Notes under the pieces: generated by a model
What the model was told of the DNA's origin: nothing
The model's database searches: none
Seen by the model: the letters and a program-made list of their open reading frames with translations, nothing else
Program-made: the position numbers and the translations under genes
Assembly (NCBI RefSeq): GCF_000520955.1
Contig: NZ_JACC01000039.1
Coordinates: 1-64,000, forward strand
DNA from: Aquimarina pacifica
Lineage (GTDB): Bacteria > Bacteroidota > Bacteroidia > Flavobacteriales > Flavobacteriaceae
Reading direction: 5' to 3'
DNA length: 64,000 nt
Shown: piece after piece, positions 1 to 40,450 of the stretch
Numbering within the stretch: the first letter of the stretch is position 1
How the letters are laid out: each line of letters starts with the position of its first letter

Positions 1-23
1 GGACTCTCTGCTTTTTCATGGAT

Positions 24-252
24 GCTATAATTAATACGAGTTTTGGTGTTTAATCCGAAAGTTAGTGTATTTTTATAAAGTCCTCCAAATCTTTTGATTT
101 ACGACTTCGTTTTTATTTTCTATTTTGGTAGTCGTAGTCCTTCGGTGGGCTTTAAAAATGAAAAAATTAAAACAAAATAAAAAGTTTTGGCTAAGTGCTT
201 AATCCGAAATTAAATACTAGTTTAATCCCGTACTAACCTTAGCTGAACCGTT
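24..252 (+). repeat. Cassette-boundary site, family A (attC-like)
   Basis: The left arm starts GCTATAATTAATACGAG (24-40). The right arm ends TACTAACCTTAGC (231-243), its imperfect reverse complement, and the site closes with GTT at 250-252. An inner hairpin pairs TACGACT (100-106) with AGTCGTA (130-136). The centre (about 98-153) recurs almost unchanged at 8750-8804 and 12570-12624. The left AAC end is not visible, so the site may be truncated. The leader at 253-361 between the site and the first gene shows nothing else I recognise. Confidence 0.75.
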
Positions 253-361
253 GTGCGTAATTTTGAGAAACCTCGTTACTCAACGAAAAACATAGTTCAC
301 TCAATATGACTTTTCTCTTCAAAAGAATCGAATTATTTTCGAGAAACTAAAAACTAAACTT

Positions 362-1267
362 TTGAAAACTTTAAAATACTTATTACTATTTCTGATTTTA
401 AGTAGCTGTTCTGCAAGTAAAAATAAAGCTTGGAATTGTATACAAATCGATGAAGGAAATTTAGCATTTAACGAAATGCTCGGATTAATTGGAAAAACTA
501 AAATAGACACAAATAAAACTAAAGCTGTTAAAATATATTCCTATGAATTTAAGAAGAATGGAAATATCAAAGACAGCACTTTAATCGAATATCAAAACCT
601 TAATTATTTTACCACATTTAAAGACCATACTAATTACGAAATCAAATACGACAGTTTAGGTAGAGATTTTGAGAGATATGCTACTCGAATTGAAACGGGC
701 GAAACTCATTTGAATTATAGAAAAATTTATGATACAAAATCAAACATAATTGAGTGGATTATTTATAATCGCGAAGGACAAATAAATTCAAAAACATTTT
801 ACTATTACGATAATTTGGAGCGTTTAATAAAATCTGAAAAATACTATGGATATTTCTTATACGAAAAGCCAATTCTTCAACGAAAGAAATTATTTGAATA
901 TGAATCCGAAAATCGAATTAAGGAAATCGAATACTTCTCAGTAGTTACTTCAGACAAGTTTGATTCTAAAAACATAAAGGAATTTAATAATAAAGGTCAA
1001 CAGATTAATTATCGTAGCGAAACTTTAGAAAATGATATTACAGTAAGTTTTTGGGGTTTTAGGTCTTTCTATGAAGAGCAAAGGCTAATCAAAAAAGAAA
1101 GTTATAGTTCTGACAATCAAGATATTTTAACTGAATTCACATACAATACGTTGAACTTACCAATCGAAAATTATTCAACAGATTTGAATTTAAATAAACC
1201 AACACAACTGATAAAATATTATTATCTTGAAAACAAAAAAACTACGCACAACAATGGTTATAAGTAA
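362..1267 (+). CDS. YD-repeat-like lipoprotein
   Basis: Predicted outer-membrane or periplasmic lipoprotein of 301 aa. The TTG start is chosen because it gives a good signal peptide with lipobox LSSC (Cys16). The body has spaced segments of the type Y-D/N-x-x-G/N-x-x (YDSLGR about 96, YDTKSN about 123, YYDNLERL about 148, YESENRI about 180, FNNKGQQ, YNTLNLP). These resemble degenerate RHS/YD repeats, which form beta-strand shells; the function of this group is unknown. The gene fills one cassette (head GTTGTGCGTA at 250, tail TACGCACAAC at 1243-1252). Its last residues and stop codon lie inside the next boundary site. A similar but longer protein is at 2786-3814. Confidence 0.7.
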   Translation: MKTLKYLLLFLILSSCSASKNKAWNCIQIDEGNLAFNEMLGLIGKTKIDTNKTKAVKIYSYEFKKNGNIKDSTLIEYQNLNYFTTFKDHTNYEIKYDSLGRDFERYATRIETGETHLNYRKIYDTKSNIIEWIIYNREGQINSKTFYYYDNLERLIKSEKYYGYFLYEKPILQRKKLFEYESENRIKEIEYFSVVTSDKFDSKNIKEFNNKGQQINYRSETLENDITVSFWGFRSFYEEQRLIKKESYSSDNQDILTEFTYNTLNLPIENYSTDLNLNKPTQLIKYYYLENKKTTHNNGYK

Positions 1268-1372
1268 TTGTTTGTTCTCATTTACTTTGGAAATTCCTGA
1301 GGAATTTTCAACTTGGTGTGTCCTTGCAAAGTTAAGTGCTAACTCACGCAACTACTCATAGCCGAGACCGTT
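1250..1372 (+). repeat. Cassette-boundary site, family E (short)
   Basis: About 123 bp, from AAC (1250) to GTT (1370-1372). The left arm AATGGTTATAAGTAATTG (1252-1269) is the imperfect reverse complement of the right arm CAACTACTCATAGCCGAGAC (1349-1368). The inner sequence AAATTCCTGAGGAATTT is a perfect palindrome. Close relatives are at 21276-21397 and 33515-33637. Confidence 0.75.
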
Positions 1373-1381
1373 ACAGCACAT

Positions 1382-1906
1382 ATGATAAAAAAAGATATAA
1401 TTCCTATACTGATTTCTTTACTTCTTGTACTCTACTCGATCGGAATCACTCTTCTGACTGATTATTTACTGAATTATAAACATTACGTGGGAATTGCTTT
1501 GATTGGAATTAGTACAATACTATATTTCAAGAATAAAAAGCTTTATGTTTATGTGTTTGGATTAACATTGGTCATAGGAATTGTCAACTTGATTGACATT
1601 TATTACTCAAACATAGTATTCGGAATCGGACCTATTAAGTTCAATACTATATTTTTGACTTTGCTAGTTATTTTCTTGGCTGTGAACAAAGAACTACTAA
1701 ACACACTGTTTCCTGAAAAGGAATTGACAGAAAAGGATTTAGTGGATAAAAATGTGGAAACGGAAAATCGGATTAAACGTTACGAACGAAAGTTCCAATC
1801 AAAATCTGAATTGCAATTGAAAAATATTGCGGACGAGAATAGCGGATATGTGGACGAAGCAAAAACCGCGGCAGAACGACTTCTGAAAGAAAAACAAGTG
1901 CTATAA
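1382..1906 (+). CDS. Four-helix membrane protein with charged C-terminal tail
   Basis: A 174-aa protein of no family I recognise. Four hydrophobic segments (about 6-25, 34-49, 54-75, 80-101) are followed by a ~70-residue, strongly charged, probably helical cytoplasmic tail rich in Glu and Lys. It is the only gene of its cassette. The head GTTACAGCAC (1370-1379) matches the tail GTGCTATAAC (1898-1907) in 9 of 10 complementary positions. The stop codon TAA (1904-1906) is itself part of the tail core, so coding sequence and recombination-site-like core overlap. Confidence 0.7.
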   Translation: MIKKDIIPILISLLLVLYSIGITLLTDYLLNYKHYVGIALIGISTILYFKNKKLYVYVFGLTLVIGIVNLIDIYYSNIVFGIGPIKFNTIFLTLLVIFLAVNKELLNTLFPEKELTEKDLVDKNVETENRIKRYERKFQSKSELQLKNIADENSGYVDEAKTAAERLLKEKQVL

Positions 1907-1966
1907 CACCTAGTATAATGTCATAGCAGCTAAGTGACAACCCAAAGGATCTTGTATATTTAACCG
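1905..1966 (+). repeat. Left arm of a family C boundary site
   Basis: AAC at 1905-1907 is followed by the family C left-arm sequence with TCATAGCAGCTAAGTGA (1921-1937), shared with 9340-9360 and 27424-27440. The right arm is missing. In its place lies the transposase remnant that follows, so the site appears broken by an insertion-sequence event. Confidence 0.6.
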
Positions 1967-3843: not shown

Positions 3844-3903
3844 AACAATCTGTACGTTGCATATGCCGCCTTTGGCAAGCAAACGCGCCATACAAGAGCC
3901 GTT
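3844..3903 (+). repeat. Compact cassette-boundary site (about 60 bp)
   Basis: Runs from AAC (3844-3846) to GTT (3901-3903). The inner part GCCGCCTTTGGC (3865-3876) is a small inverted repeat, and the arms AATCTGTACGTTGCAT and GCGCCATACAAGAGCC pair imperfectly. It is the shortest intact-looking site here, within the size of classical attC sites, and is not related in sequence to families A-C. Confidence 0.55.
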
Positions 3904-3920
3904 GTATGTAATTAGAAAAA

Positions 3921-4583
3921 ATGAAAAAAGTAATATATTTATTATTAATAATATCAACTAATATTTTTGCTCAAGAACATATTGTAACTGCAAAAAGTGG
4001 TTTATCAATTAGAAGTAAAGCTAGTATTGAAAGTGATAAAATTGGTAAATTAAACTATGGGCAGACAGTTGATGTCTTAAAAAAAACTATAGAATCCTTT
4101 CAAGTTATAGATAATAACAAAATAATATCTGGCTATTGGGTTAAAATAAAAGTAGATAACTCTAATTACGGATACGTTTTTAATGGATATTTAGAGTTTA
4201 AAAAAGATTATACCGATTATACAGTAGCTAAACAGTTTCTTAATGCTCACGTAAGAGGTTGTATTTTAGAGAAAAGATTTCTTACCTCTAAAAATTTCAA
4301 AGAAATATGTACTAAAACATCAGAACAAGATTTTTATTACGAGCCTGAAACAGGTTACCATATATCACTTGATAATGCAGACCTTATTCTTGATGCTCAA
4401 GATTATCCTGATGATGGATTTAAAATCTCTAGTTTTGATTCAGAATCTGAATATGTTATATTGGAAGGAATTGGATGGGAATCATTTAAAGTTGCAGTAA
4501 AAGTTGTGAATGAAAATGGAATATTTTTGGTGGATGGCTCAGGAATAATAAATATACCTCTTGATAAAAGACCTAGGAGATAA
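3921..4583 (+). CDS. Secreted SH3b-domain protein
   Basis: 220 aa with a signal peptide (about 1-18, ending FAQ). A bacterial SH3 (SH3b) domain follows (about 20-95), with the usual SGLSIRSKAS entry, a GKLNYG turn and YGYVFNGYL at its end. SH3b domains often bind peptidoglycan or peptides in the envelope. The ~120-residue C-terminal half has no recognised domain. It occupies one cassette with perfectly matching ends (GTTGTATGTA at 3901-3910, TACATACAAC at 4587-4596). Related SH3b proteins are at 10437, 40554 and 59313; the last is most similar, sharing the YVFDGYL-type ending. Confidence 0.75.
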   Translation: MKKVIYLLLIISTNIFAQEHIVTAKSGLSIRSKASIESDKIGKLNYGQTVDVLKKTIESFQVIDNNKIISGYWVKIKVDNSNYGYVFNGYLEFKKDYTDYTVAKQFLNAHVRGCILEKRFLTSKNFKEICTKTSEQDFYYEPETGYHISLDNADLILDAQDYPDDGFKISSFDSESEYVILEGIGWESFKVAVKVVNENGIFLVDGSGIINIPLDKRPRR

Positions 4584-4593
4584 AACTACATAC

Positions 4594-4738
4594 AACAAGA
4601 TATAAAAAAACATTGGGTTTTTACGCTTGATTCAAAAGTCTGTGTTTATTTGCAAAGTCGCCAACTATAACATTTGACTTAGGGCCAATCCGCAACGTAT
4701 TGCTTATCATTTGCCCTACGTTTCTTAAACGAAACGTT
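4594..4738 (+). repeat. Cassette-boundary site, family B variant
   Basis: AAC at 4594-4596 to GTT at 4736-4738. The left half has ATAAAAAAACATTGGGTTTT and GTCTGTGTTTATTTGCAAAG, the latter shared with the site at 5674. The right half contains a perfect hairpin, CGTTTC TTAAAC GAAACG (4719-4736). Confidence 0.7.
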
Positions 4739-4818
4739 AGCAAATATTACCAAAAAAGAGCATATTTTCATATCTCCATTTGAAAATGAAATATGTAGTT
4801 TTTAACATAAAAATATAA

Positions 4819-5646
4819 ATGAAAAAAAAATTTAGTATTGTAATTAAAGGTTGCTTAGGATTCTTTGTTTTAATAATTATCTTTCTTGGCATCGTATTGT
4901 ACCCAATATTTTTTCCTAGTGAGGTAACTATATCTGATTATACAGATGACTATAAAGTTACTGCAAATACAAAACACCCCAAATTTAAACCTTTAGTCAA
5001 TAAATTTAATCAACAAAAACATCGTTTTGAGTTTGATATTTGTGAATATAAGTATAATAGTAACAGTTTTTTCTTTGGAGATTCTCCTGAAAAAATTATT
5101 TCTATTTTCGGTAAACCTGATGGAAAAGATGAAAGAACAATTTACAATTATGATAAATTCTTAAGAAGAAAAGATAGTGACACAACAAAAAAAGCGCTTC
5201 ATTATGAATATAAAAATTTAAAATTATCTATTAGTTTTAAAAAATTACATAATAAAGGTTATGAATTAAGTAGCTTAAATATTGCTATGTCTAAGGATGA
5301 TTACCAATTAGCATACAAGTATGGTAAAACCCAAACTTTATTTGATGTTGTCCTATTTAGAAAAGTCCCTTATCAATTAAATATGACTTTAAACGAGTTT
5401 ATGGAATTATCAAACTTGTCTCATAAAAAACTTAGAAGAACTGGTGGCTTTCACAGGAGTTTTTTTATGTTTCAAGAAGAATGCCCTCCTACTGAGGAAA
5501 CACGTATATATACGGGTATAGATTCTTACGCATCCTATGAAACTGAAGGTGGTGGGCATATGACTTGGACTGGTAATTTTGATCCAACTAAATCATCAAC
5601 TATAGAAAGTCTCTCTTTTTATCTAAAAACATTAGAAGATTATTGA
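4819..5646 (+). CDS. Membrane-anchored protein of unknown function
   Basis: 275 aa. An N-terminal membrane anchor (about 10-33) is followed by a soluble, probably periplasmic region. A segment GDSPEKIISIFGKPDG (about 89-104) resembles the BamE/SmpA-type 'switch' G-x-S-x-x-x-I-x-x-x-x-G-x-P, but the rest does not obviously match that family. I cannot assign a function. It is the single gene of its cassette: head GTTAGCAAAT (4736-4745), tail ATTTGCAAAC (5667-5676), 9 of 10 complementary. Confidence 0.6.
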   Translation: MKKKFSIVIKGCLGFFVLIIIFLGIVLYPIFFPSEVTISDYTDDYKVTANTKHPKFKPLVNKFNQQKHRFEFDICEYKYNSNSFFFGDSPEKIISIFGKPDGKDERTIYNYDKFLRRKDSDTTKKALHYEYKNLKLSISFKKLHNKGYELSSLNIAMSKDDYQLAYKYGKTQTLFDVVLFRKVPYQLNMTLNEFMELSNLSHKKLRRTGGFHRSFFMFQEECPPTEETRIYTGIDSYASYETEGGGHMTWTGNFDPTKSSTIESLSFYLKTLEDY

Positions 5647-5673
5647 AATTAAATAGCTAATAAAACATTTGCA

Positions 5674-5858
5674 AACAATTTATAAAAAACATAGAGTTTT
5701 TGTGTTAACTCCAAAGGTCTGTGTTTATTTACAAAGTCGCTAAATATAAAACTTGGCATTTTCAACAAAAAAACAAAATAAAATAAAAAAATTTGGCTCT
5801 GTGTTCATCCAAAAAGTTAGTATCTTTTTACACGCTACGTTTCATACACAAGTACGTT
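5674..5858 (+). repeat. Cassette-boundary site, family B
   Basis: AAC at 5674-5676 to GTT at 5856-5858. The left arm AATTTATAAAAAACATAGAG pairs imperfectly with the right arm ending ACGCTACGTTTCATACACAA (5833-5852). It shares GTCTGTGTTTATTTnCAAAG with the site at 4594 and its right arm with those at 8669, 12488 and 18784. The site is open in the frame of the next gene, which invites a wrong start call. Confidence 0.75.
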
Positions 5859-5882: not shown

Positions 5883-6707
5883 ATGTTTTTAAACACCCAA
5901 AAATATGGAGGGAAATTAGGAGAAATTAAATTTTCTAAAGCAAAAAGCAAATCTCAATTTCAAGGAAAGACGAAAGGACTTGCCTTAAAATATGTAGTTG
6001 AAGGAGTAGAGAATTATTGCTTAGATGGAGTTAATATTCCTTTACGTAAAGGACAATTTTTACTTTTAAAAGAAAATGAAAAATATGAAGTATTTTTTGA
6101 AAATAAAAGAAACACAATCCAAGGAATCTGTATTGACTTAAATCTCGATTTGGACAAAAATTTAGTTGATTTATATGAAAATGAAATTTTGTTCAAAACA
6201 GTTTTTAATTGTTTTACTTTTTGTCCTTTAGGAAATTCATTTCAAGACTTTTCTAAAAAGGAAAATGATAAAATGAACGGTTTAGCAGTTCTTAATTCAA
6301 TTTCTTCTCAGCTAATTTCATTTTCTGATGACCTATTTGAAATGCAAATGAGGTTAGATTTTTTTGCTAAAAAAACAGAAACAAAAAGAATACTGGTTTC
6401 CAAATTAATGGTTTCTAAAGATTTTATTTATCAAAACTATAACACTAAAATTACGTTAAACCAATTGTCTCTTGAATCTGGAATTTCAAAGTTTCATTTT
6501 TCTAAATTATTTAAAAGTTGTTTCCGAAAATCACCTCTTGAATTACAAGAATTTTTAAGAATGGAGAAAGCAAAAAAAATAATTTCAACAAAGAAAATGA
6601 CATTAACTGACGTTGCTTTCTATTTAGGGTATTCAGATTTAGCTGCCTTTTCCAATCAATTCAAAAAGCATTTTGGAGCATCTCCTTCTTCTTTTTCTAA
6701 ATATTAA
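5883..6707 (+). CDS. AraC-family transcriptional regulator
   Basis: 274 aa. The frame is open from a TTG at 5793, but that stretch is the boundary site, so the ATG at 5883 is preferred. The N-terminal half looks like a cupin-type ligand-binding domain. The C-terminal ~100 residues form an AraC double helix-turn-helix: the first helix pair around LSLESGISKFHFSKLFK, the second around DVAFYLGYSDLAAFSNQFKK, then the family signature FGASPSSF. It lies 62 bp upstream of the DUF885 gene and may control it. It shares a cassette with that gene (head GTTGAATGCA at 5856). The matching tail is not convincing. Confidence 0.85.
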   Translation: MFLNTQKYGGKLGEIKFSKAKSKSQFQGKTKGLALKYVVEGVENYCLDGVNIPLRKGQFLLLKENEKYEVFFENKRNTIQGICIDLNLDLDKNLVDLYENEILFKTVFNCFTFCPLGNSFQDFSKKENDKMNGLAVLNSISSQLISFSDDLFEMQMRLDFFAKKTETKRILVSKLMVSKDFIYQNYNTKITLNQLSLESGISKFHFSKLFKSCFRKSPLELQEFLRMEKAKKIISTKKMTLTDVAFYLGYSDLAAFSNQFKKHFGASPSSFSKY

Positions 6708-6769
6708 AATTCGCAAGATTTTACAAATGCTTCCTTTTTCGAATTTCTATTTTTACAAAAACAATATTT

Positions 6770-8068
6770 ATGAAAAATGGATTTCTTCTAGTGGGTCTTT
6801 TCTTAGTCTTACCTGTAAGTTGTCAAAACAAAAACAACACTTACAATTCTGATTTTAAACTTGTTGCCAAAAATTTTAAAGAAGGATTTAAAAAATTAAA
6901 CCTTTCGCCCAATCAACTTTCCTATGTAGCCAACCTTCAAGCAATTCAGAGTAAAGATTCCATTTTACAACAGGAGCTTTTTTTTGAAAGAACAACAAAA
7001 ATCTTACAAAAAATAAACCCTGAAAAACTATCAAAGAAAAATCGACTAGATTTTGAACTAATTGACTACGAGACTAAAATGAATTTGCTTAGAATTGCTC
7101 AAGAAAAGAAATGGAGTTCTTTAAAAGTTCAAGACATTTCAGACACCGGTTTGTTCTCGCTACCTAATGGAAAATTTTTATACGGCTATTTCTTGAAGCG
7201 ATGGATTGGTCTTGAAGTAACTCCTGATGAAATGTACAAATTTGGTCTAAGTGAAATTGAACGAGTAAAGTCTCGTATGAAAACGGTTCAAACTAGAGTA
7301 AATATGGATAACTCTACTTTTAAAAAACACATCAATGCCTCTTCTTTCTATTATGATAATATAGCAATTATTCAAGAAGAGTTTGAAAACATTAAAAAAA
7401 TTGTAGCTCAAAAACTGCCTGAAAATTTTCCATTTTTGGATTCGATTTCTGATGTAAAAATTGCGCGTGGCACTAATAAAGAGTTGGCTAAAGTCCCTGC
7501 ATTCTATCAAAATGAGACCTTCTATTATAATTTTTTTGATCAGCCTTTTAACAAACGACAGATGAGTTGGATTTACATTCATGAAGCGATGCCTGGACAT
7601 CATTATCAGATTATGTTGGAAAATAGTTTAAACCGTACTGACATTCAAAAAATGTTTCAATACGCAAGTTACAGAGAAGGCTGGGCCGCTTATATTGAAG
7701 AAATCGGTTACGAAATTGGAGCTTATCGAGATATTTATGACGAATTAGGAAAGTGGGAATGGGATATCATTCGCTCTGTTCGTGTATCTATAGATGTTGG
7801 GATAAACTATTATGGTTGGAGTGATCAAAAAGCATTAGAATTTTGGCAACAACATATTAAAGAACAAGATAACATTGGATTAAGAGAAATTGCTAGAATG
7901 AAGCGATGGCCATGTCAAGTAATTACATATAAATATGGAGCGGATAAAATTTTAAAATGGAAAACGAAATTTCAAAAGAAAGAGGATTTTAATTTAAAAC
8001 AATTTCATCAAATTATTTTAGAAAATGGGTCCCTCCCATTTTCGGTTTTAGAAAAAATTATAGACTAA
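6770..8068 (+). CDS. DUF885-family lipoprotein, putative metallohydrolase
   Basis: 432 aa. A lipoprotein signal peptide (LPVSC, Cys18) is followed by a DUF885 domain. The family hallmark HEAMPGHH near residue 270 fits the H-E-x-x-P-G-H-H metal-binding motif, and the family is thought to comprise metallopeptidase-like hydrolases. YREGWAAYIEEIG downstream fits the conserved E-G-W-A-x-Y segment. At 432 aa it is shorter than typical members (550-600 aa), mainly in the N-terminal half. It follows the AraC regulator by 62 bp on the same strand, which suggests a regulated pair acting on a periplasmic substrate. Confidence 0.8.
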   Translation: MKNGFLLVGLFLVLPVSCQNKNNTYNSDFKLVAKNFKEGFKKLNLSPNQLSYVANLQAIQSKDSILQQELFFERTTKILQKINPEKLSKKNRLDFELIDYETKMNLLRIAQEKKWSSLKVQDISDTGLFSLPNGKFLYGYFLKRWIGLEVTPDEMYKFGLSEIERVKSRMKTVQTRVNMDNSTFKKHINASSFYYDNIAIIQEEFENIKKIVAQKLPENFPFLDSISDVKIARGTNKELAKVPAFYQNETFYYNFFDQPFNKRQMSWIYIHEAMPGHHYQIMLENSLNRTDIQKMFQYASYREGWAAYIEEIGYEIGAYRDIYDELGKWEWDIIRSVRVSIDVGINYYGWSDQKALEFWQQHIKEQDNIGLREIARMKRWPCQVITYKYGADKILKWKTKFQKKEDFNLKQFHQIILENGSLPFSVLEKIID

Positions 8069-8311: not shown

Positions 8312-8659
8312 ATGAAAATAAACTTATTAGTCATTAGAACTGAAAATATTGAAATATTAAAAACTCAATATGAAAAATTAGGTTTAACATTTGAATATCA
8401 TAAACACGGAAATGGACCTTTTCATTATGCATCTGAAGAAAACGGGTTTGTTTTTGAAATTTATCCTTTGACCAAATCAATGAAAGAAGCTGATGCATCT
8501 TTAAGAGTTGGATTTGAGATTGAAAATCTTGAATCAAAAATTGAAGATTTAAGACAAACTAACTGGAAAATATTATCAGAACCAACTCAAATGGAATGGG
8601 GATTAATTTCGATAATCCAAGATTTAGATGGTAGGAAAATAGAATTAAAAAACAAATAA
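8312..8659 (+). CDS. Glyoxalase/bleomycin-resistance (VOC) family protein
   Basis: 115 aa, the usual size of a single VOC-fold subunit. It starts with KINLLVIRTENIEILKTQYE, the typical first beta strand and helix. Further family features are FHYASEENGFVFEIYP in the first half and ISIIQDLDGRKIEL at the end, where D-x-D/G-x-x-I-E-L closes the fold and the final Glu is a usual metal ligand. The substrate cannot be predicted; members range from lactoylglutathione lyases to antibiotic-binding proteins. A VOC protein is a common kind of integron cassette cargo. The tail GCACTACAAC (8662-8671) abuts the stop. Confidence 0.8.
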   Translation: MKINLLVIRTENIEILKTQYEKLGLTFEYHKHGNGPFHYASEENGFVFEIYPLTKSMKEADASLRVGFEIENLESKIEDLRQTNWKILSEPTQMEWGLISIIQDLDGRKIELKNK

Positions 8660-8668: not shown

Positions 8669-8904
8669 AACAAGAGCTACAATTAATGCGGGTTCTGGTG
8701 CTTAATCCAAAGTTTAGCGTATTTTTATAATGTCTGCCAAATTTTAAATTTACGACTTCGTTTTTATTTTCTATTTTGGTAGTCGTAGTCCTTCGGTGGG
8801 CTTTTAGAATAGAAAAATGAAAAACAAAACATACAAATTCGGCTCTGTGTTTATTCGAAAAGTTAGCGTCTTTTTAAACGCTACGTTTCATAAACAAGAC
8901 CGGT
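8669..8904 (+). repeat. Hybrid A/B cassette-boundary site
   Basis: Starts AAC (8669-8671) with the family A left arm (GAGCTACAATTAATGCGGG) and inner hairpin, but ends with the family B right arm (ACGCTACGTTTCATAAACAA). The final core is GGT (8902-8904) instead of GTT. It is nearly identical over ~230 bp to the site at 12488-12718. The two arms cannot pair with each other as they do in pure A or B sites. Confidence 0.75.
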
Positions 8905-8926
8905 GTGAACAATTCCTGAAAATTTA

Positions 8927-9321: not shown

Positions 9322-9484
9322 AACACGATACATGATGTAATAGCAGCTAAGTGATGAATCGAATGGTTATTGTATTTTTGGTTAAGCGTAATGCTTGCAA
9401 AAAGTTAAAGTTAGCAACCAATGCACAAAAAAATCGAAAAGTAGGGTAACAATTTGCTCTGCTTCGACACATATATTAAACGTT
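9322..9484 (+). repeat. Cassette-boundary site, family C
   Basis: AAC at 9322-9324 to GTT at 9482-9484. The left arm ACGATACATGATGTAATAGC pairs imperfectly with the right arm ending CGACACATATATTAAACG. The left arm carries TATTTTTG (9373-9380), which fits the Bacteroidota -7 element TAnnTTTG and points at the next gene. Relatives are at 24481, 27410 and 38524. Confidence 0.7.
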
Positions 9485-9494
9485 GCCTACGATT

Positions 9495-10220
9495 ATGAAA
9501 AACGAAATTATAACATTATTGTGTTTTCTTTTTTTAAACTTTTGTTTTGGACAAAAAGAGATATATTATCCTGAATATAAGTACAAAATAAAAGACGGGA
9601 CTTATAAAATTAATAGTCTTTCCAAAGAATTCTTGAAAGAAAAACTAGCTGTTATCAAACCGAATATTGAAACACTAAATCCTAAAGAATATCCAAATTT
9701 CTTAAATCCATACAATAAAGAAATTGTACTTTTTGAAAATCATAATTTGAATGAATTAAAACCGATTGGAAAGCTAACAGAATTGACTCAAATTTGCATT
9801 GATTCAATTATTTACAAATACAAATTTAAAGACTTTACCAATTGTGTTTGGAATAGAATATTAATCAACGATAAATATTATTATACAGACGCTGACGTTC
9901 ATGACTTTTCAATTTCTAAAGATCTAAATAAGCTGAATCAAAAATTGAAAATCATTGGTCAAAAAGACGGTTATGATGGAGCTTATCATTTAGGCTACCC
10001 TGAATATTTTTTCATGATTTTTACTGATATTGAAAATAAAGTCATTTATAAAACAAAAGTTCTTGACTTCTATCTTAATAACGAATTTGCGATGGAAGAA
10101 GATATCTTAAATTTAAAATGGAATGAGAAAAATAATTCCTATGAAATAACTTTGATTGGAGCAGACGAAAAAATAAATATTTCTTGGAACGGTAAAGAAA
10201 CTGAAATAAAAAAACTGTAG
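9495..10220 (+). CDS. Secreted protein of unknown function
   Basis: 241 aa. The ATG at 9495 is chosen over an in-frame TTG at 9483 because the latter lies in the cassette core. It then begins with a good signal peptide (about 1-18, ending CFGQ). The rest is a mixed alpha/beta soluble domain with two isolated Cys and no motif I recognise, probably periplasmic. It is the single gene of its cassette: head GTTGCCTACG (9482-9491), tail TGTAGGCAAC (10216-10225), 9 of 10 complementary. The family C site upstream carries a possible promoter element at 9373-9380. Confidence 0.6.
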   Translation: MKNEIITLLCFLFLNFCFGQKEIYYPEYKYKIKDGTYKINSLSKEFLKEKLAVIKPNIETLNPKEYPNFLNPYNKEIVLFENHNLNELKPIGKLTELTQICIDSIIYKYKFKDFTNCVWNRILINDKYYYTDADVHDFSISKDLNKLNQKLKIIGQKDGYDGAYHLGYPEYFFMIFTDIENKVIYKTKVLDFYLNNEFAMEEDILNLKWNEKNNSYEITLIGADEKINISWNGKETEIKKL

Positions 10221-10222
10221 GC

Positions 10223-10399
10223 AACAAAACCTATAATTAATGCGGGAGCAGGTGCTAGCGGAAATGTTGGCTGATTTGCATTATCGTAAAAACTTTTTTC
10301 TTATTTCTAAACTCAAACTAAAAAACGCCAAAAGCTTTTACTTGTGCTGGCTCGAAATTCGCTGAATTTCTTCGGTACACTAATCATAGCCAGAACGTT
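10223..10399 (+). repeat. Cassette-boundary site, family A variant
   Basis: AAC at 10223-10225 to GTT at 10397-10399. The left arm CTATAATTAATGCGGGA pairs with the right arm ACACTAATCATAGCCAG. An inner palindromic stretch, GAAATTCGCTGAATTTC, lies at 10352-10368. The central part AAACTCAAACTAAAAAACGC...TTTTACTTGTGCT is also found, without arms, at 44550-44590. Confidence 0.7.
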
Positions 10400-10436
10400 G
10401 CCAGTAAGTTCAAAAACTTAAAACTAATTTCGATTA

Positions 10437-11495
10437 ATGAAGCATCAAATTTTTAAAAAATTATTCATTTTATCTATATTCATTTTTTCTTCCAATATTT
10501 CAAGAGCAGAACTTATCTTTGATTTTTGCCTTCAGAGTTTTGATTCATCTCAATATCCAATTATAAAAATAAAAGGAGGAATTTTACAGTTTGGATGTGA
10601 AGACGCATTAGCGGAGAGAATTACTTTTTTTGAAAATGGAAAAAAAGTTAAAATTGACGTGGATTTAAAAAAACTTCAAAAGGTTTTTCAAATCATTACA
10701 TTAACATATAAAACAACATTACCGAAAGAGGTTTTAAGGAAGTTTTATTTAAATTATAATAGTAATCATAACTTTTTTTTTAAATATGACCCTATTAAAT
10801 ACAAACATATAAAACAAATAGGTGAGTTTGGAGAAGAGAAAGAGGAATATGAAGACTTATTTAATTATACTAAAACTCTCTTATCAAACTATGAAAGTAC
10901 TAGAATCGAAAAAATGTATGTTCTAGCATTAAATGGGCTGCTTGTTAGAGAACAACCTAATACATTATCAAAAGTTATAGGAAAACTTGATTTTGGTACA
11001 ATAACTAATGCTAGTATACAGCAATATGGAAAAGAAATTATAGTTCCCGACAATAAAAATTTAAAATTAGAGATAGAAGGAAAATTTAGAAAAATAAATT
11101 ATAAAGAAAAAGAAGCTTATGTTTTTGATGGGTTTCTAACCACTTTCACTTTCTTTAAATCATTAGAAAATCAAAATTTTTGTTCTATAATCAATAATAG
11201 CCAAGTACAAGAAGAAAACAATCAAGATTACAGAAAAGAACTAGGTTCTGATAAATATGGTAATTTTTTATTACTTAAATATACTTCAATTGAAAAGGTA
11301 TACCTTATAATCCAAGCTCTTTCTGAAGATTTCAAAAATTTAGAAATAAAAGAACAACAAAATTATGGCGAAATTTACGATGGATGGCCATATTATATAT
11401 TTAACCACGACAATTATATCTTTAAACTTTTAAAATACGATGGATACCCTAACATATATACTAATCACAAAGTCTACTTTGAATGTTATGAATAA
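10437..11495 (+). CDS. Secreted protein with SH3b-like domain
   Basis: 352 aa with an N-terminal signal peptide (about 1-22, ending SRAE). The N-terminal ~160 residues are unrecognised. An SH3b-like domain follows (about 163-235): NGLLVREQPNTLSKVIGKL is the typical entry, and KEAYVFDGFL closes it. The last ~110 residues are unrecognised. It is probably an envelope protein. The YVFDGFL ending ties it to the SH3b proteins at 3921 and 59313. It is the single gene of its cassette: head GTTGCCAGTA (10397-10406), tail TACTAGCAAC (11549-11558), 9 of 10 complementary. A small hairpin (AGTTGTTT/AAACAACT, 11528-11549) lies between stop and tail. Confidence 0.7.
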   Translation: MKHQIFKKLFILSIFIFSSNISRAELIFDFCLQSFDSSQYPIIKIKGGILQFGCEDALAERITFFENGKKVKIDVDLKKLQKVFQIITLTYKTTLPKEVLRKFYLNYNSNHNFFFKYDPIKYKHIKQIGEFGEEKEEYEDLFNYTKTLLSNYESTRIEKMYVLALNGLLVREQPNTLSKVIGKLDFGTITNASIQQYGKEIIVPDNKNLKLEIEGKFRKINYKEKEAYVFDGFLTTFTFFKSLENQNFCSIINNSQVQEENNQDYRKELGSDKYGNFLLLKYTSIEKVYLIIQALSEDFKNLEIKEQQNYGEIYDGWPYYIFNHDNYIFKLLKYDGYPNIYTNHKVYFECYE

Positions 11496-11555
11496 AAAAC
11501 CACAAGTAGTATATTTAAATTAATTTCAGTTGTTTGTTAAAAAACAACTACTAGC

Positions 11556-11742
11556 AACAATGGCTATGGTTAATAGGGATTTTGGTGCTCAACTCAAAGT
11601 TCAAGGTTTTAAACTAAGTCCGCCAAATCCTTTTGATTTGATTTTACGATAAAAAAGATAAAACAAAATAAAAAGTTTTAGCTAAGTACTTAATCGAAAG
11701 TTCACTACTTTTAATTCCCGCACTAACCATAGCCGAGCCTTT
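11556..11742 (+). repeat. Cassette-boundary site, family A (best-preserved arms)
   Basis: AAC at 11556-11558. GGCTATGGTTA (11562-11572) is perfectly complementary to TAACCATAGCC (11724-11734), and imperfect pairing continues inward (TAGGGATTTT against TTTTAATTCCCG). The right core reads TTT (11740-11742) instead of GTT. The centre carries CCTTTTGATTTGATTTTACG and AGATAAAACAAAATAAAAAG, also seen at 23230-23262. This is the best example of the hairpin-forming architecture. Confidence 0.8.
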
Positions 11743-11757: not shown

Positions 11758-12489
11758 ATGAACTACGAAAAGAACAAAATAGAACTTGAAGAAAATGGAT
11801 ATTCCGTTTTAGCCGATCTATATTCCGATAACGAAATAAACCAAATTTTAGCTTGTATAGAAAATGCTGAACAAGAGGGGAATTCGTTTATGAAAACAAA
11901 GGACTTGTTTGCGATTAGACAATTAATCAAAAATGTACCTGAATTGAGTGATTTGTTATTTAACAAAAAATTGACTGAATTAATTTCTAACCTATCAGAA
12001 TCAGAATATTTCCTGACCAAAGCAATTTATTTTGACAAACCAAGCGAATCGAATTGGTTTGTGGCTTATCACCAAGATTTGAGCATTTCGGTTGACAAAA
12101 AAGCCGATTTGGAAAATTATGTGAATTGGACATTAAAAAAAGGACAATACGGAGTTCAACCACCAATTAAGATTTTGCAAGACACTATAACAATACGAAT
12201 TCATTTAGACAAAACCAACAAAAATAATGGTGCCTTAAAAGTAATCCCGAAATCACACTCAAAAGGAATAATTCGTACTGAATCAAAAGATTGGAATATT
12301 GAAAACGAATTTATCTGTGAAGTAGAAAAAGGTGGAGTAATGTTAATGAAACCTTTGACTTTACACGCTTCAAATAGAACAACTAACAGAAAGAAAAGAC
12401 GAGTAATACATTTAGAATTTAATAAACATAATCTGACTAAACCACTTACTTGGTTGGAATACTGTGGAATAAAAAAAGCCTGCACATAA
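11758..12489 (+). CDS. Phytanoyl-CoA dioxygenase (PhyH) family protein
   Basis: 243 aa, full length for a compact PhyH protein. These are Fe(II)/2-oxoglutarate dioxygenases with a double-stranded beta-helix fold. The visible iron ligands are the H-x-D of YHQDLSIS (about 98-105) and the distal His in LTLHASNR (about 200). The conserved Arg follows in RRVIHLEF, which binds 2-oxoglutarate. NGALKVIPKSHSKG is the usual strand-turn motif of the family. The small-molecule substrate cannot be predicted. It is a typical metabolic cassette cargo with no partner gene. Its tail is CACATAAC (12483-12490), immediately at the stop codon. Confidence 0.85.
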   Translation: MNYEKNKIELEENGYSVLADLYSDNEINQILACIENAEQEGNSFMKTKDLFAIRQLIKNVPELSDLLFNKKLTELISNLSESEYFLTKAIYFDKPSESNWFVAYHQDLSISVDKKADLENYVNWTLKKGQYGVQPPIKILQDTITIRIHLDKTNKNNGALKVIPKSHSKGIIRTESKDWNIENEFICEVEKGGVMLMKPLTLHASNRTTNRKKRRVIHLEFNKHNLTKPLTWLEYCGIKKACT

Positions 12490-12718
12490 CAAGAGCTACA
12501 ATTAATACGGGGTTTGGTGCTTAATCCAAAGTTTAGCGTATTTTTATAATGTCTGCCAAATTTTAAATTTACGACTTCGTTTTTATTTTCTATTTTGGTA
12601 GTCGTAGTCCTTCGGTAGGCTTTTAGAATAGAAAAATTAAAAACATACAAATTCGGCTCTGTGTTTATTCGAAAAGTTAGCGTCTTTTTAAACGCTACGT
12701 TTCATACACAAGTCCGCT
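12488..12718 (+). repeat. Hybrid A/B cassette-boundary site (second copy)
   Basis: Nearly identical over ~230 bp to 8669-8904: A-type left arm GAGCTACAATTAATACGGGG, shared hairpin core, B-type right arm ACGCTACGTTTCATACACAA. The final core reads GCT (12716-12718). Two almost identical hybrids 3.6 kb apart point to recent duplication or gene conversion. Confidence 0.75.
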
Positions 12719-13477: not shown

Positions 13478-13571
13478 AAAAATAAAAACAAAACAAAAAG
13501 TTTTAGCTAAGTGCTTCATCAGAAATTAATCGCTTATTAATTCCTATAATAACCACTTAGTCGAAGCCTTT
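13478..13571 (+). repeat. Truncated family A site (right half only)
   Basis: AAACAAAACAAAAAGTTTTA and GCTAAGTGCTTCATC match the right half of family A. The right arm ends CCTATAATAACCACTTAGTC, and the core reads TTT (13569-13571). The left arm and AAC are absent, so the upstream gene abuts the middle of the site. Confidence 0.65.
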
Positions 13572-17792: not shown

Positions 17793-17813
17793 GTAACCTA
17801 TTAAATCTAAATA

Positions 17814-18773: not shown

Positions 18774-18783
18774 AGTGTATTAC

Positions 18784-27411: not shown

Positions 27412-27569
27412 CACATATGTAATCATAGCAGCTAAGTGATAAATCAATTGGTTCATGTATATTTGGTAAGGACGTAATGCATGTAGAATATAAAAGTTGC
27501 CAACCAATGCGCTAAAGAATTAAAAATTGGGTAACGTTTTACCCTGCTACGATACATATAGTAAAAGTT
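27410..27569 (+). repeat. Cassette-boundary site, family C
   Basis: AAC at 27410-27412 to GTT at 27567-27569. TCATAGCAGCTAAGTGATAA in the left arm matches 9322-9484 and 1905. The right arm is TGCTACGATACATATAGTAA. TATATTTG (27458-27465) fits the -7 consensus TAnnTTTG and points at the next gene. Confidence 0.7.
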
Positions 27570-27593
27570 AGCACTATCAATACACTAGTCATT

Positions 27594-27971
27594 ATGAAAG
27601 TTACAGCCGAAAAGAATGAAAAAGTTGCCAATATGGTATTTGGGACCATTTATCCGCTTTATCTAAATAGATTAGAGAAAAACGGAAGAACAAAGGAAGA
27701 GCTTGATCAAGTAATTAAATGGTTTACGGGATATGATCAAGAGACTCTAGACGCACTTATTGATGAAAAAGTAACTTATAGAACATTCTTTCAAAAAGCT
27801 AAAATTCATAAGAACGCAGATATGATTAAAGGTGTCGTTTGTGGTTATCGAATTGAGGAAATTGAGGATGAATTTGAAATATATAAACAATGTAGACAAA
27901 TGGAAAAGCTGATTGATGAATTGGCAAAAGGTCGTAAAATGGAGAAGATTTTACGTAAAGAAAAAAAGTAG
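27594..27971 (+). CDS. DUF2200 family protein
   Basis: 125 aa, full length for DUF2200, a small cytoplasmic family of unknown function. Family signatures are VFGTIYPLYLNRLEKNGR near the start, VIKWFTGYDQ, then VVCGYRIEEIEDEFEIYKQC and the end KLIDELAKGRKMEKILRK. It is the single gene of its cassette: head GTTAGCACTA (27567-27576), tail TGGTGCTAAC (27975-27984), 9 of 10 complementary. A possible promoter element lies in the upstream site at 27458-27465. Confidence 0.88.
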   Translation: MKVTAEKNEKVANMVFGTIYPLYLNRLEKNGRTKEELDQVIKWFTGYDQETLDALIDEKVTYRTFFQKAKIHKNADMIKGVVCGYRIEEIEDEFEIYKQCRQMEKLIDELAKGRKMEKILRKEKK

Positions 27972-28065
27972 AAACTGGTGCTAACATTGCAAATAACAAA
28001 TTAGGAACCTCAGTCGTTTATGAAAGTTCGATACTGTTTACAAACACCACAAAATCGTTGATTTG

Positions 28066-28181: not shown

Positions 28182-29579
28182 ATGAATGAAACTAGACGAG
28201 AGTACCTCAAACGAATAAATATCGTCTTAGATTTCATAGAAAATAATCTTAATACAGATTTATCACTTAAAAACTTGTCTGAGAAAGCCAATTATTCACC
28301 TTACCATTTTCATCGAGTATTCTCTATAATAGTAAACGAAAAACTAAATGAATTCATTAATAGAAAACGGATTGAACGCATTGCTTCTATTTTGTTGATT
28401 GGGTCAAATTCATCTTTAAAAGAATTAGCATATGAGTACGGGTTTAATAGTGATAATTCCTTTTCAAGAGCATTTAAGAAATACTACGGCGTTAGTCCAA
28501 CTAAATTTAAATCTTCCGGAAAAGAATTACTTAGCAAGATTGGTATAGAACCTTTTTCATCAGAGAAATACATTTGTTCCATTGATAATATTCAACAATG
28601 GACTAAAATGAATGCGCAAATAACCATAAAAGAACTTCCAGAATTAAAACTTGCAAGTACATCTCATATTGGAGACTTTGAAAAGATAGGTAGTATGTTT
28701 CAAAAATTGATAGAATGGGGACATCAAAAAGGAGTATTAGATACCTCAAATTTTAACGCAATAACTATTTATCACGACAACCCCAATGTTACTCAAACCT
28801 CAAAAATAAGATTCAGTACTTGTGTGACAATTAGCGAAAATATTAACCCAGAAGGAGAAATTAGACAATACAAACTAAAAAAAGGTATTTATGCCGTTGG
28901 GCATTTTGAAATTAAAGGAGAAGAAATTTCAAAAGCATGGAAAAGTATGTGCATTTGGGTCATTGAAAATGAATATGAATTTAGAGATGACGACTATTTT
29001 GAGATATATCTTAATGATCACAAAACCCATCCTGAGCAAAAATTTATAATAGACATTTGTATTCCACTTGAAAAAACAACTAACGTTAAACTTGAAAAAA
29101 CTAATACTGTAAATTTATCTGCTTACAAAAAACAAGACAAGCAATGCACGAATGACTTAGACTATCATCAATTGATAAACTATATGAAAGAATTAAGAGC
29201 ATTTTTTCAAAAAGAATATGAAACCTTTAAGCTAGGTAATTTATATCGCGAAAGCGCAGATTATTCCTATTTTTCAATAACCACAGAGGATTTAAAAAAG
29301 CAAAAACTTAAATTTGTTATTATATTAGATCACAAAACTTTGTGTTTTTCAATTTGCCTTTCAGGGCAAAACAAAAGTATTAGAAAAAAATATTGGAGTT
29401 TTTTTGACAATAGTGATTGGAATAAATATCATTTGGCTGAATCAATTGATACCAGTTTATCTATTATAGATCAAACTATTGTTGAAGCGCCCAATTTTGA
29501 TAACAAAAGAAGTTTAACTGAACAAATTGAAAAAGAATCAATGAAGTTTATTAATGAACTTAAAGAGATACTTGAATAA
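28182..29579 (+). CDS. AraC-family regulator fused to GyrI-like and C-terminal DUF domain
   Basis: 465 aa, three modules. The N-terminal AraC double HTH (about 8-105) shows LSLKNLSEKANYSPYHFHRV and ELAYEYGFNSDNSFSRAFKK, with GVSPTKF as closing signature. A GyrI-like small-molecule-binding domain (about 140-305) follows, with ITIKELPELKLASTSHIGDF and the typical end EQKFIIDICIPL. The last ~150 residues are a separate domain with LRAFFQKEYETFKLGNLY; it resembles a domain (DUF7000-type, my recollection) found alone or fused to such regulators. It probably senses a hydrophobic ligand. It follows the IS scar, so its cassette head is lost. Confidence 0.85.
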   Translation: MNETRREYLKRINIVLDFIENNLNTDLSLKNLSEKANYSPYHFHRVFSIIVNEKLNEFINRKRIERIASILLIGSNSSLKELAYEYGFNSDNSFSRAFKKYYGVSPTKFKSSGKELLSKIGIEPFSSEKYICSIDNIQQWTKMNAQITIKELPELKLASTSHIGDFEKIGSMFQKLIEWGHQKGVLDTSNFNAITIYHDNPNVTQTSKIRFSTCVTISENINPEGEIRQYKLKKGIYAVGHFEIKGEEISKAWKSMCIWVIENEYEFRDDDYFEIYLNDHKTHPEQKFIIDICIPLEKTTNVKLEKTNTVNLSAYKKQDKQCTNDLDYHQLINYMKELRAFFQKEYETFKLGNLYRESADYSYFSITTEDLKKQKLKFVIILDHKTLCFSICLSGQNKSIRKKYWSFFDNSDWNKYHLAESIDTSLSIIDQTIVEAPNFDNKRSLTEQIEKESMKFINELKEILE

Positions 29580-30240: not shown

Positions 30241-30426
30241 AACATGGCGTATAAAACATAATCAATAAGTGCTTAACCCAAAGAACAATTCTTACTCTTA
30301 AAAAAACTCCAAATTTTTAAATTTGACTTTTAGAATAGTAAAATTAAAAACATAGAAAATTAAGTTTCCTACCAAACCAAAAAGTTAGTGTATTTTTGCA
30401 CGCTACATTTCACAAAAAAAATCTTT
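30241..30426 (+). repeat. Decayed family B boundary site
   Basis: AAC at 30241-30243. The left arm ATGGCGTATAAAACATAATC and the right half AAAAAGTTAGTGTATTTTTG, GCACGCTACATTTCACAAAA are B-type. The final core is unclear. TATTTTTG (30391-30398) fits TAnnTTTG, 50 bp before the next gene. Confidence 0.55.
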
Positions 30427-38924: not shown

Positions 38925-38981
38925 ACTCTCTGGAATACTATAATATATTTTAAAATCAACTATTACTAAAAAACCAACCAC

Positions 38982-39002
38982 AACATACATAGAGTAAACA
39001 TT
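38982..39002 (+). repeat. Collapsed boundary site (21 bp)
   Basis: AAC (38982-38984) and ATT (39000-39002) are separated by only 15 bp, which still read ATACATAGAG as in family B left arms. The arms and centre have been deleted. Confidence 0.4.
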
Positions 39003-39012
39003 GGTAGTAATT

Positions 39013-40206
39013 ATGAAGAAATTGAAGAATCCATTATTTTGCCTTTTGATTTTGACAGTAAGCTTAATTTCGTGTAAAACAGAAAATAAAACCGAAACCG
39101 AGCATCTACAACAACTGAAAACTGAAAAAATTAACAGTCTAGCAAATCGCTATCTTGAATTAAACCGATTTAGCGGAGTTATATTGGTTGCCAATGAAAA
39201 TTCAATTATTTACAACAATAACTTTGGTCTAGCTGATTACGAAAAAAAGAATCCTTTTTCAAAAAACACCTCTTTTAAGATAGGTGAAATTTCTGAAATA
39301 GTTATTACCAATATGATTCAGGAAATGGTAATTAAATACCAAATTCAATTATCGGATAACATTTCTAAGTACTTTCCAGAAATCAAATATGACTTAACTC
39401 TAAATGATTTATTAAATCAAACGCCAAATTCAGCACTAGGTTCTTTGGACCAATCAGAGAAGAATAAATTAAATCATGATTATTTAAGATTATTTATCGA
39501 AAAAATAAGTGGAAAAAGTTTCCAAGAAAACATTGAGGAATACAGTAAAGATTTAGAATTAGAAAACACTTATTTTGAAAAAACAGATACTAATTTGGCC
39601 GTAGGCTACCTGTATCATAATTATCAAGGTAATGGACTTGAATTACAAAAATCACCAGTCATAAGTTCGCAAAACACATTCATTAAAAATGGACTTAAAT
39701 CAACAGCTCATGACTTGACAAAAATCATTAGTTCAAATTCGGTAAATAAAGTAGAGATTGAAGGTTATTTAGAACATGATGGTTTTAGTTATTCTGTATA
39801 TAGAAATCCTCAAAATAAAATTTCAATAATCGTTTTAAGTAACCGAAGACATCCGGTTGCAAAAGAAATATCGAATAGTATTGATGCAATTATTAACGAT
39901 AAAGAATATCGAATTCCTTTGGCAAGAAAAGAACTCGATATTGATAAAAAATTACTAAAAGATTATTCTGGCTCTTATGCTATAAATGAAAATACAAATT
40001 TTCAAGTTGTGGTTCAAAATGATAGTTTATTTGTAATGATGGGACCGAATAAAATACATCTAAAACCACAATCCGAAAACCAATTTTATATGGAACAAAT
40101 GGACGCCTCTATGCGCTTTTTAAGAAGCACGAATAACATAGTTAATGAAGTCGTTTTATTAGATGGTTTTTTAGACGGAAATAGAATTAAACGGATTAGA
40201 AAATAA
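39013..40206 (+). CDS. Beta-lactamase-fold lipoprotein without SxxK catalytic residues
   Basis: 397 aa from the ATG at 39013; the in-frame TTG at 39001 is in the site core. The lipoprotein signal peptide ends LISC. A class C beta-lactamase-type domain runs to about 290: FSGVILVANENSIIYNNNFG, ADYEKKNPFSKNTSFKIG, LNDLLNQTPNS, then a C-terminal DUF3471-like beta domain (LLKDYSGSYAINENTNFQ). Where the family has G-S-x-S-K the sequence is G-E-I-S-E, so both the nucleophilic Ser and the Lys are gone. The Y-x-N region reads N-H-D. It is probably non-enzymatic. Compare 14369-15760. Confidence 0.8.
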   Translation: MKKLKNPLFCLLILTVSLISCKTENKTETEHLQQLKTEKINSLANRYLELNRFSGVILVANENSIIYNNNFGLADYEKKNPFSKNTSFKIGEISEIVITNMIQEMVIKYQIQLSDNISKYFPEIKYDLTLNDLLNQTPNSALGSLDQSEKNKLNHDYLRLFIEKISGKSFQENIEEYSKDLELENTYFEKTDTNLAVGYLYHNYQGNGLELQKSPVISSQNTFIKNGLKSTAHDLTKIISSNSVNKVEIEGYLEHDGFSYSVYRNPQNKISIIVLSNRRHPVAKEISNSIDAIINDKEYRIPLARKELDIDKKLLKDYSGSYAINENTNFQVVVQNDSLFVMMGPNKIHLKPQSENQFYMEQMDASMRFLRSTNNIVNEVVLLDGFLDGNRIKRIRK

Positions 40207-40274
40207 AAAGTGATTAAAAGGTTTCTAGAAAGTTCATTACTTTTAACTACCACCCTTAATACCACCGAGTCTTT
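40203..40274 (+). repeat. Right half of a family A site
   Basis: AGAAAGTTCATTACTTTTAA and CACCCTTAATACCACCGAGT match the right arm of family A. The core is TTT (40272-40274). The left half is missing. This is the last well-recognisable site in the window. The rest of the gap (40275-40450) shows no gene. Confidence 0.55.
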
Positions 40275-40450
40275 ATACCATTAGAAAACAACAAGGAAAA
40301 AATTACTTAACTACATCTTTCTTACTAGTTAATAATCCATACTTTACACTATCTCGAACAGAAAAACATATCCACTTAAATAAAAACTACACAAAAACAC
40401 ATATAATCTATTGATACAAAACTCTTTAATACTGTTCTTTTCATTTTTGC

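Follow-up and report, generated by a model that had tools for sequence, protein, structure and literature searches.

An integron-type cassette array in Aquimarina pacifica and a candidate Xer-like recombinase encoded elsewhere in the genome

Introduction

IntI, the integrase of integrons, is distinguished by an extra domain (PMC9024848), which one paper holds to be needed for recombination in integrons (PMC9668308) and another calls essential, while noting that an integron-like subgroup of recombinases does not conserve it fully (PMC8138268). Integron integrases are described as having gained single-strand recombination with this domain, I2, which docks the extrahelical bases and impedes the second strand exchange (PMC7790495, PMC4792948). 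The IntegronFinder 2.0 survey of complete genomes names one complete integron in Bacteroidetes proper, that of Salinibacter ruber, with others in Chlorobi and Ignavibacteriae, and mentions that In0 elements (an integrase without cassettes) had been reported earlier in Bacteroidetes (PMC9024848). Elsewhere the Bacteroidota are listed, without detail, among the integron-bearing phyla (PMC8618304), and taxon-specific attC models exist for 11 taxa, Bacteroidota not being among those named (PMC8352920). Here we analyse a stretch of 64,000 bp from Aquimarina pacifica, referred to throughout as the window (bases 1-64,000 of contig C39, which is 66,967 bp long, in a draft genome of 5.26 Mb and 144 contigs), together with the array of gene cassettes that it carries and the tyrosine recombinase that probably serves such arrays. 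Our literature search, with most subscription papers and all preprints outside its reach, returned no published description of these arrays.

The cassette array is real, of integron type and partly decayed in the window. Our reading, to which we give a probability of roughly 0.86, is that the window represents a mostly old part of a sedentary array of integron-type cassettes, run by a Xer-like recombinase; it is integron-like in its working, yet not a classical IntI integron. The surprise lies outside the window, in a machine that stands beside such arrays without the integrase hallmark and that recurs in several families of the Bacteroidota.

Results

Cassettes complementary to their own far ends

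The start of an integron cassette must pair with the cassette's own far end, because both form one attC in the free circle. In 67 cassettes lying between sites located by a sequence profile (described below), the cassette start (G|TTNNNNNN) is indeed complementary to the cassette's own far end and not to that of its neighbour. Over the six variable bases that follow GTT, the match averages 4.03/6 with the cassette's own R'' against 1.95/6 with the R'' of other cassettes (n=67), and 0/20,000 permutations reached the observed own-end mean; the full six positions match in 30/67 cassettes, against 0.9% of other pairs. The mean falls to 2.07/6 when the R'' standing in the same physical site is taken instead (n=60; own end better in 42, worse in 10, tied in 8). 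When the four first cassettes are added, 5 or 6 of the 6 positions match in 43/71. The cassettes that match poorly are often longer than 1.5 kb, and our guess is that an intervening site of another family has been missed in them. A cruder test, with mechanically chosen ends, gives a weak own-end signal in the young parts of arrays.

A candidate recombinase, its putative attI and their linkage to cassettes

The earlier note on this DNA had seen no integrase, which stands for C39 itself; in the same genome, an intact tyrosine recombinase of 378 aa is encoded at the end of contig C2, with a degraded relative on C42. Behind both copies lies the same 18-bp palindrome, then a short run of bases up to G|TT, and then a cassette whose end matches. 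The first cassette at C2 matches its own end at 6/6 positions and ends in a site of a second sequence family. Intact recombinases stand upstream of cassettes in this genome (G000, contig C2) and in two others (G024 and G063), and recombinase gene and cassettes point the same way.

This linkage extends well beyond the one genome. Across Aquimarina, a cassette end matching the G|TT start behind the gene is found in 15/30 loci, against 1 when the starts were shuffled once. In other genera of Flavobacteriaceae it is found in 18/28 loci against 0.95 expected (in 7 of the 28, less than 400 bp of sequence follows the gene). In these 28 loci, the longest arm of a perfect inverted repeat within the 66 nt at the stop averages 8.1, against 4.7 in shuffled sequence. 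A sample of the whole phylum gives a matching end in 11/20 loci against 0.35 expected (5/7 in Flavobacteriaceae and 6/13 in other families); the enzymes there are 36-61% identical, and not all of these loci show a clear inverted repeat. Relatives of the recombinase occur in 49/66 Aquimarina genomes (E<=1e-40), in at least 139/299 Flavobacteriaceae genomes (E<=1e-60, among the best 6 candidates per genome) and in at least 21/395 genomes of the phylum (E<=1e-70, among the best 4 candidates per genome), the weaker of which need not all be integron enzymes.

A divergent gene for a Zn-ribbon-like protein of 122 aa lies back to back with the recombinase in 29/30 Aquimarina loci and 27/28 loci of the other genera, and in 3/20 loci of the phylum sample, where the three belong to Flavobacteriaceae. 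Within the genus, each of the 51 strong copies (E<=1.3e-34) adjoins a recombinase match, the coordinates being compared by eye, and nearly every Aquimarina genome has one further, distant copy elsewhere. Examples of the gene are L059:8280-8651 on the minus strand and G000:C2:276282-276647. Some relatives are annotated as DUF2116 family Zn-ribbon protein, also in Cytophagales.

The earlier note had proposed that cassettes be compared for gain or loss, and the comparison was made here between species. From the 21/30 Aquimarina loci with a marked junction we took the 37 locus pairs that are more than 80% identical to the left of G|TT (the pairs share loci). Mean identity is 0.86 in the 150 bp before G|TT and 0.26 after it (highest 0.57), where unrelated stretches give a mean of 0.15 and a highest value of 0.53; the fall comes no more than 25 bases beyond the dinucleotide of G|TT. 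Between close species the first cassette differs while the sequence before G|TT is ~95% identical. Different cassettes stand, on this sequence comparison, behind the same predicted attI, which does not imply an event under way.

Identity of the enzyme

The best named model for the recombinase is NF040815 (archaeal XerA type), which two of the enzymes match with 226 and 222 bits (cut-off 220); the same two reach 203 and 192 bits with the integron integrase model TIGR02249, below its cut-off of 265. Among PDB structures, IntI4 scores slightly below XerC-like proteins and XerA. From the region of the first catalytic arginine to past HxxRH, the alignment covers 112-117 residues in 22/22 Bacteroidota rows and 154 in 5/5 IntI rows, with 117 and 119 in the genome's own two Xer-type rows; from that arginine to HxxRH itself the distance is 91-96 residues in the 21 measurable Bacteroidota rows, 133 in the two measurable IntI rows and 96 and 98 in the Xer-type rows. 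When the enzyme is aligned with IntI4 of known structure, IntI residues 178-248 fall opposite query residues 280-307. On this shorter core stretch and the IntI4 alignment, the recombinase is without the additional domain of IntI (I2, around patch III). In a tree of 29 rows the five IntI rows (all near IntI1) form a clade that excludes the 22 Bacteroidota rows, but the tree program cautions that long branches meet there. The Flavobacteriaceae enzymes have in addition ~105 N-terminal residues without a Pfam match. None of the 11 matches in the genome itself passes the TIGR02249 cut-off, nor does an IntI in any of the 66 Aquimarina genomes, a search in which the control genomes gave none either, so that absence is not proven.

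The attC-like sites and their hairpins

Direct repeats at the boundaries are visible without any model, and they also bring out the second sequence family of sites (9322-9484, 27409-27569 and others). An nhmmer profile was built from 13 sites (7 in the window, 2 on C42, 3 on C53 and 1 on C36). It finds 13 plus-strand sites in the window, from 25 to 30,412, of which 6 are training sites; the window training site at 17662 is missed on re-search. Many profile sites also occur in other contigs and other genomes. A covariance model, a check the earlier note had suggested, was made from 56 sites (2 in the window) with 15 base pairs; among the best 150 of 5982 candidates it recognises at least 47 places in the genome at E<=0.01, 13 of them in the window (22-30,425, in a single orientation), those outside the window being on C53, C42, C75, C37, C43, C36, C8, C40, C32 and C72. 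Neither the profile nor the covariance model recognises any site in the window after about 31 kb, and a crude scan for arms leaves most window gaps unseparated from shuffled sequence. By blast, one young site is found in at least 61/66 Aquimarina genomes (E<=1e-6, among the best 12 candidates per genome). From AAC to GTT, 96 sites from many loci have a median length of 186.5 bp, and those in the window run from ~60 to 240 bp. The AAC/GTT boundaries that the earlier note described are confirmed, and the arms that it quoted (GGCTATGGTTA/TAACCATAGCC) are present in the sequence. Throughout, the sites, pairs and loci counted share ancestry and are not independent; there were fewer separate events than these figures suggest.

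The sites have, in their R and L arms, the two sets of inverted repeats expected of an attC. The L arms score 23.5 within sites and 14.7 across sites (96 sites; 0/5000 permutations). RNAalifold folds 56 bottom-strand sites into a helix of 15 pairs, 11 of which have changes on both sides. In this 56-site alignment 94.0% of 836 cells are paired, against 28-51% in slid registers; double-change cells number 173 against 60.8 when shuffled, and covariation is 0.557 against 0.189.

The mismatches in these arms are far from symmetrical. Read on the top strand, those of the L arm are A-C 188 times, G-T 11 times and other 53 times, and those of the R arm in 43 well-matching cassettes A-C 53 times, G-T twice and other 39 times (A-C against G-T is 14 to 2 without position 11). 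A top-strand A-C is a G-T on the bottom strand, and the bottom strand would thus be kept foldable; the asymmetry in these sequences points to folding of that strand. Two A-C positions 5 bp apart are fixed, in 70/82 sites each, in a helix that is otherwise mostly Watson-Crick, and a column pair that is G-T in 54/56 bottom-strand sequences is, by our reading of the positions, the second of them. The consensus L helix has no bulge, and 82/96 sites fit an ungapped 16-bp register at >=11 matches, but 41/85 local arm alignments have some gap. The mismatch asymmetry suggests that fixed G-T wobbles may mark the bottom strand and set the choice of strand. In folding energy, the two youngest sites have z values of -3.5 and -3.2 on the bottom strand and -1.7 and -2.6 on the top strand.

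Sites, cassettes and genes of the window

The sites and cassettes recognised in the window are, in order:

22-252 (+): attC-like site truncated at its 5' end by the contig edge; the next cassette opens with GTT at 250 (nhmmer 25-252, covariance model 22-252)
250-1252 (+): cassette, gene 362-1267; start GTTGTGCGTAATT, own 3' end AACTACGCACAAC, match at 6/6 variable positions
1250-1372 (+): attC-like site, short version (profile, covariance model)
1370-1907 (+): cassette, gene 1382-1906; start GTTACAGCACATA, end CAAGTGCTATAAC (own-end score 5)
3844-3903 (+): short attC-like site of ~60 bp, like the one behind the first G063 cassette (found by eye, missed by the profile)
3901-4596 (+): cassette, SH3-domain gene 3921-4583; start GTTGTATGTAATT, end AACTACATACAAC (own-end score 8, Pfam)
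4594-4738 (+): attC-like site (profile, covariance model)
4736-5676 (+): cassette, gene 4819-5646; start GTTAGCAAATATT, end AACATTTGCAAAC, 5/6 match
5674-5858 (+): attC-like site (profile, covariance model; row of alignment A3)
8669-8905 (+): attC-like site with a longer central part, after VOC/glyoxalase gene 8312-8659 (profile, covariance model, Pfam)
9322-9484 (+): attC-like site of the second family (CATAGCAGC...; direct repeats D6/D7)
9482-10225 (+): cassette, gene 9495-10220; start GTTGCCTACGATT, end AACTGTAGGCAAC (own-end score 6)
10223-10399 (+): attC-like site (profile, covariance model)
10397-11558 (+): cassette, gene 10437-11495; start GTTGCCAGTAAGT, end AACTACTAGCAAC, 5/6 match
11556-11742 (+): attC-like site, the example given in the earlier note; R' end TTTG in place of GTTG (profile, covariance model)
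12488-12717 (+): attC-like site after PhyH gene 11758-12489 (profile, covariance model, Pfam)
13426-13570 (+): weak or truncated site, the profile matching its 3' half only (profile, covariance model)
17670-17792 (+): attC-like site of divergent sequence, weak alone (crude scan 31.0, shuffled mean 12.1 and maximum 33.5; missed by the profile)
17790-18786 (+): cassette, gene 17814-18773; start GTTGTAACCTATT, end AGTGTATTACAAC (own-end score 4, weak)
18784-18969 (+): attC-like site (profile, covariance model; row of A3)
23143-23331 (+): attC-like site (profile, covariance model)
26743-26927 (+): attC-like site before GNAT gene 26950-27411 (profile, covariance model, Pfam)
27409-27569 (+): attC-like site of the second family (direct repeats D6; crude scan 30.5, equal to the shuffled maximum)
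27567-27985 (+): cassette, DUF2200 gene 27594-27971; start GTTAGCACTATCA, end AACTGGTGCTAAC (own-end score 5, Pfam)
30241-30425 (+): last site recognised in the window (profile, covariance model)
31796-63679 (+, except 55100-56236, which is minus): remaining genes of the one-strand series, its membership of the array being suggested by orientation only

Across the 64 kb, 60/62 non-overlapping open reading frames (ORFs) of >=80 aa are on the plus strand, the only exceptions being 14369-15760 and 55100-56236, the first of which is perhaps a later insertion. The one-strand series that the earlier note had described is there, and it continues past 40,280. The end that the note had given to the array at this position does not hold, since recognised sites stop near 31 kb and the strand bias runs to 63.7 kb; past ~31 kb the sites are decayed or unrecognised. 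Judged by a Pfam scan of 40 window proteins, the genes are short and unrelated; they include SH3, AraC-type regulator, DUF885, VOC, PhyH, LprI, TPM, a two-component pair, S41 peptidase, amidohydrolase, GNAT, DUF2200, DinB and cupin.

Some further features may be mentioned. The minus-strand gene 14369-15760 encodes a beta-lactamase-fold protein and adjoins a LytTR two-component pair. The stretch 28182-29579 encodes an AraC/GyrI-like protein whose DUF7000 end also matches Cass2, an integron-associated effector-binding family. The same coding-like stretch, GGACTCTCTGCTTTTTCATGGATGCTA, opens both C39 (window 1-27) and C53 (L022 3-29) and is followed by different attC-like sites; this common start is probably an assembly break at a duplicated cassette. 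On C42 (L021 6046-7816), tandem ORF-like repeats (YVITRRNDEVILLIRVIRLYRLLHYVRND) surround an ORF at 6596-6922, which we take to resemble a GIY-YIG protein.

Discussion

What was computed, namely the anatomy of the array, the own-end complementarity, the covariation, the wobble-type asymmetry of mismatches, the divergence at G|TT and the conserved linkage, lends itself to the following mechanism. Each gene is bounded by G|TT at its start and by an attC-like site at its end. Once a cassette is free and circular, its start (R') would meet its own far end (R'') in one attC, whose bottom strand would fold into an R arm of ~9 to 13 bp, unpaired spacers of ~3 and 6 nt and an L arm of ~16 bp. Exchange of the bottom strand, as a single-stranded substrate, at G|TT with attI would be the work of a cellular tyrosine recombinase whose gene lies elsewhere (intact on C2, degraded on C42). 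The attI-like sequence lies directly behind this gene and usually consists of an inverted repeat followed by a few bases ending in G|TT. New cassettes would enter at attI, and older ones, such as those in the window, would drift away and decay. Strand choice would probably be set by the fixed G-T wobbles of the bottom-strand hairpin, and the N-terminal region of the recombinase and its Zn-ribbon-like partner may also have roles.

Several observations weigh against this account. Fifteen of the 30 Aquimarina loci are without a matching cassette end; 3 of these have less than 120 bp behind the gene, and 12 have 1.4-1.5 kb. One C42 cassette that was tested occurs in no other of the 66 genomes, and no interspecies transfer of an intact cassette was seen. 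In the window at 14-40 kb and 40-64 kb, mechanically chosen ends match their own end at chance. The structure used for the covariation was derived from the same 56-site alignment, in which two of the five measures, pairs changed on both sides (11 against 10.6 shuffled) and further pair types (30 against 27.2; 34/500 shuffles), show no excess. Finally, in 25 sites chosen by eye the mean z of the folding energy is -1.08 for the top and -1.00 for the bottom strand, and the bottom strand folds better in 8/25, so that the set gives neither a strong signal nor a preference for the bottom strand. Measured against chance, own-end complementarity and arm covariation do well, and the folding energy of these 25 sites does poorly. 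The note's claim of integron-like cassettes is nevertheless upheld by the own-end complementarity, the arm covariation and the divergence between species that starts at G|TT.

Among other explanations, it is conceivable that the recombinase acts on double-stranded sites in the manner of Xer, with the inverted repeat in attI and with attC as a duplex or cruciform, so that single-strand folding is not needed. The enzyme is without I2, the domain to which published work ties single-strand recombination (PMC7790495), an inverted repeat lies in attI behind many recombinase copies, and the folding energies do not favour the bottom strand. However, the mismatches (188:11 and 53:2) favour bottom-strand pairing, for which a double-stranded mechanism gives no evident reason, and R'' matches the start of its own cassette although the two are a gene apart in the array; we consider this explanation unlikely. 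We are equally doubtful of a second possibility, a cassette array that is real but here a dead remnant, no longer moving. The degraded recombinase on C42 and the lack of recognised sites in the window past 31 kb are what such a remnant would leave, but at C2 all 378 aa of the recombinase are intact and the first cassette matches its own end at 6/6, and the first cassette changes between close species that are ~95% identical before G|TT.

It is much less probable that an ordinary IntI integrase, acting in trans or since lost, moves the arrays and that the Xer-like enzyme is a bystander. attC sites are recognised by shape, and a foreign IntI might for that reason use these sites. Arrays of cassettes without an integrase are moreover numerous in bacteria (PMC8618304), and the silence of the genus-wide search for IntI was shared by its control genomes. 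Yet a match above the TIGR02249 cut-off occurs in 0/66 Aquimarina genomes, and 0/11 own-genome matches pass that limit; it is the Xer-like enzyme behind which a self-complementary cassette and attI-like sequence stand, in Aquimarina as in other genera of the family and beyond it. Least credible of all is that the genes are individual transposon-like units, flanked by their own terminal inverted repeats and inserted one after another: the unit ends are complementary over ~13 bp, but they vary between units yet match within them (6/6 in 30/67 against 0.9% of other pairs), and the units stand head to tail in one orientation behind a tyrosine recombinase with an attI-like sequence.

If the integron-type array is run by the Xer-like recombinase, one may go a step further. 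Tentatively, and at a little short of even odds, we propose that the Bacteroidota own a separately evolved integron, in which an I2-less Xer-like recombinase would act on folded single-stranded ends, the wobbles would replace the extrahelical bases, and the N-terminal domain with the Zn-ribbon partner would replace I2. Surveys of integrons would have missed such arrays by searching for the IntI domain and for differently built attC sites. Should cassette arrays across much of one phylum be run by an I2-less recombinase, an integron can be reached by a path other than I2, a large reservoir of mobile genes has gone unnoticed, and strand choice can be studied in a second natural experiment, that of G-T wobbles conserved in fixed places.

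Comparison with known systems

Taken alone, C39 qualifies as a cluster of attC sites lacking integron-integrases (CALIN), but the genome has a recombinase on another contig. The earlier note had called the array CALIN-like or novel; the second term fits, as a Bacteroidota system whose enzyme is without the IntI additional domain, and the first does not simply apply, the window being one piece of a fragmented array. The Salinibacter ruber integron likewise comes from the Bacteroidetes; it differs in having been found with IntI profiles. Recombinases of the Xer type resolve chromosome dimers. The archaeal XerA type (NF040815) gives the best named match, but the enzymes described here sit beside cassette arrays, and those of Flavobacteriaceae have ~105 further N-terminal residues.

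With the IntI integrons, such as those of class 1 and the Vibrio superintegron, these arrays share tandem cassettes in one orientation, the G|TT crossover and an attC of the form R''-spacer-L''...L'-spacer-R', as well as an attI beside the integrase, the own-end logic and an indirect sign of bottom-strand folding. They differ from them in that the recombinase is without the additional domain of IntI and its gene runs in the same direction as the cassettes. In Flavobacteriaceae the enzyme has an extra N-terminal region and a Zn-ribbon-like partner. The attI usually has an inverted repeat. Finally, the consensus L helix carries no bulge but has fixed G-T wobbles.

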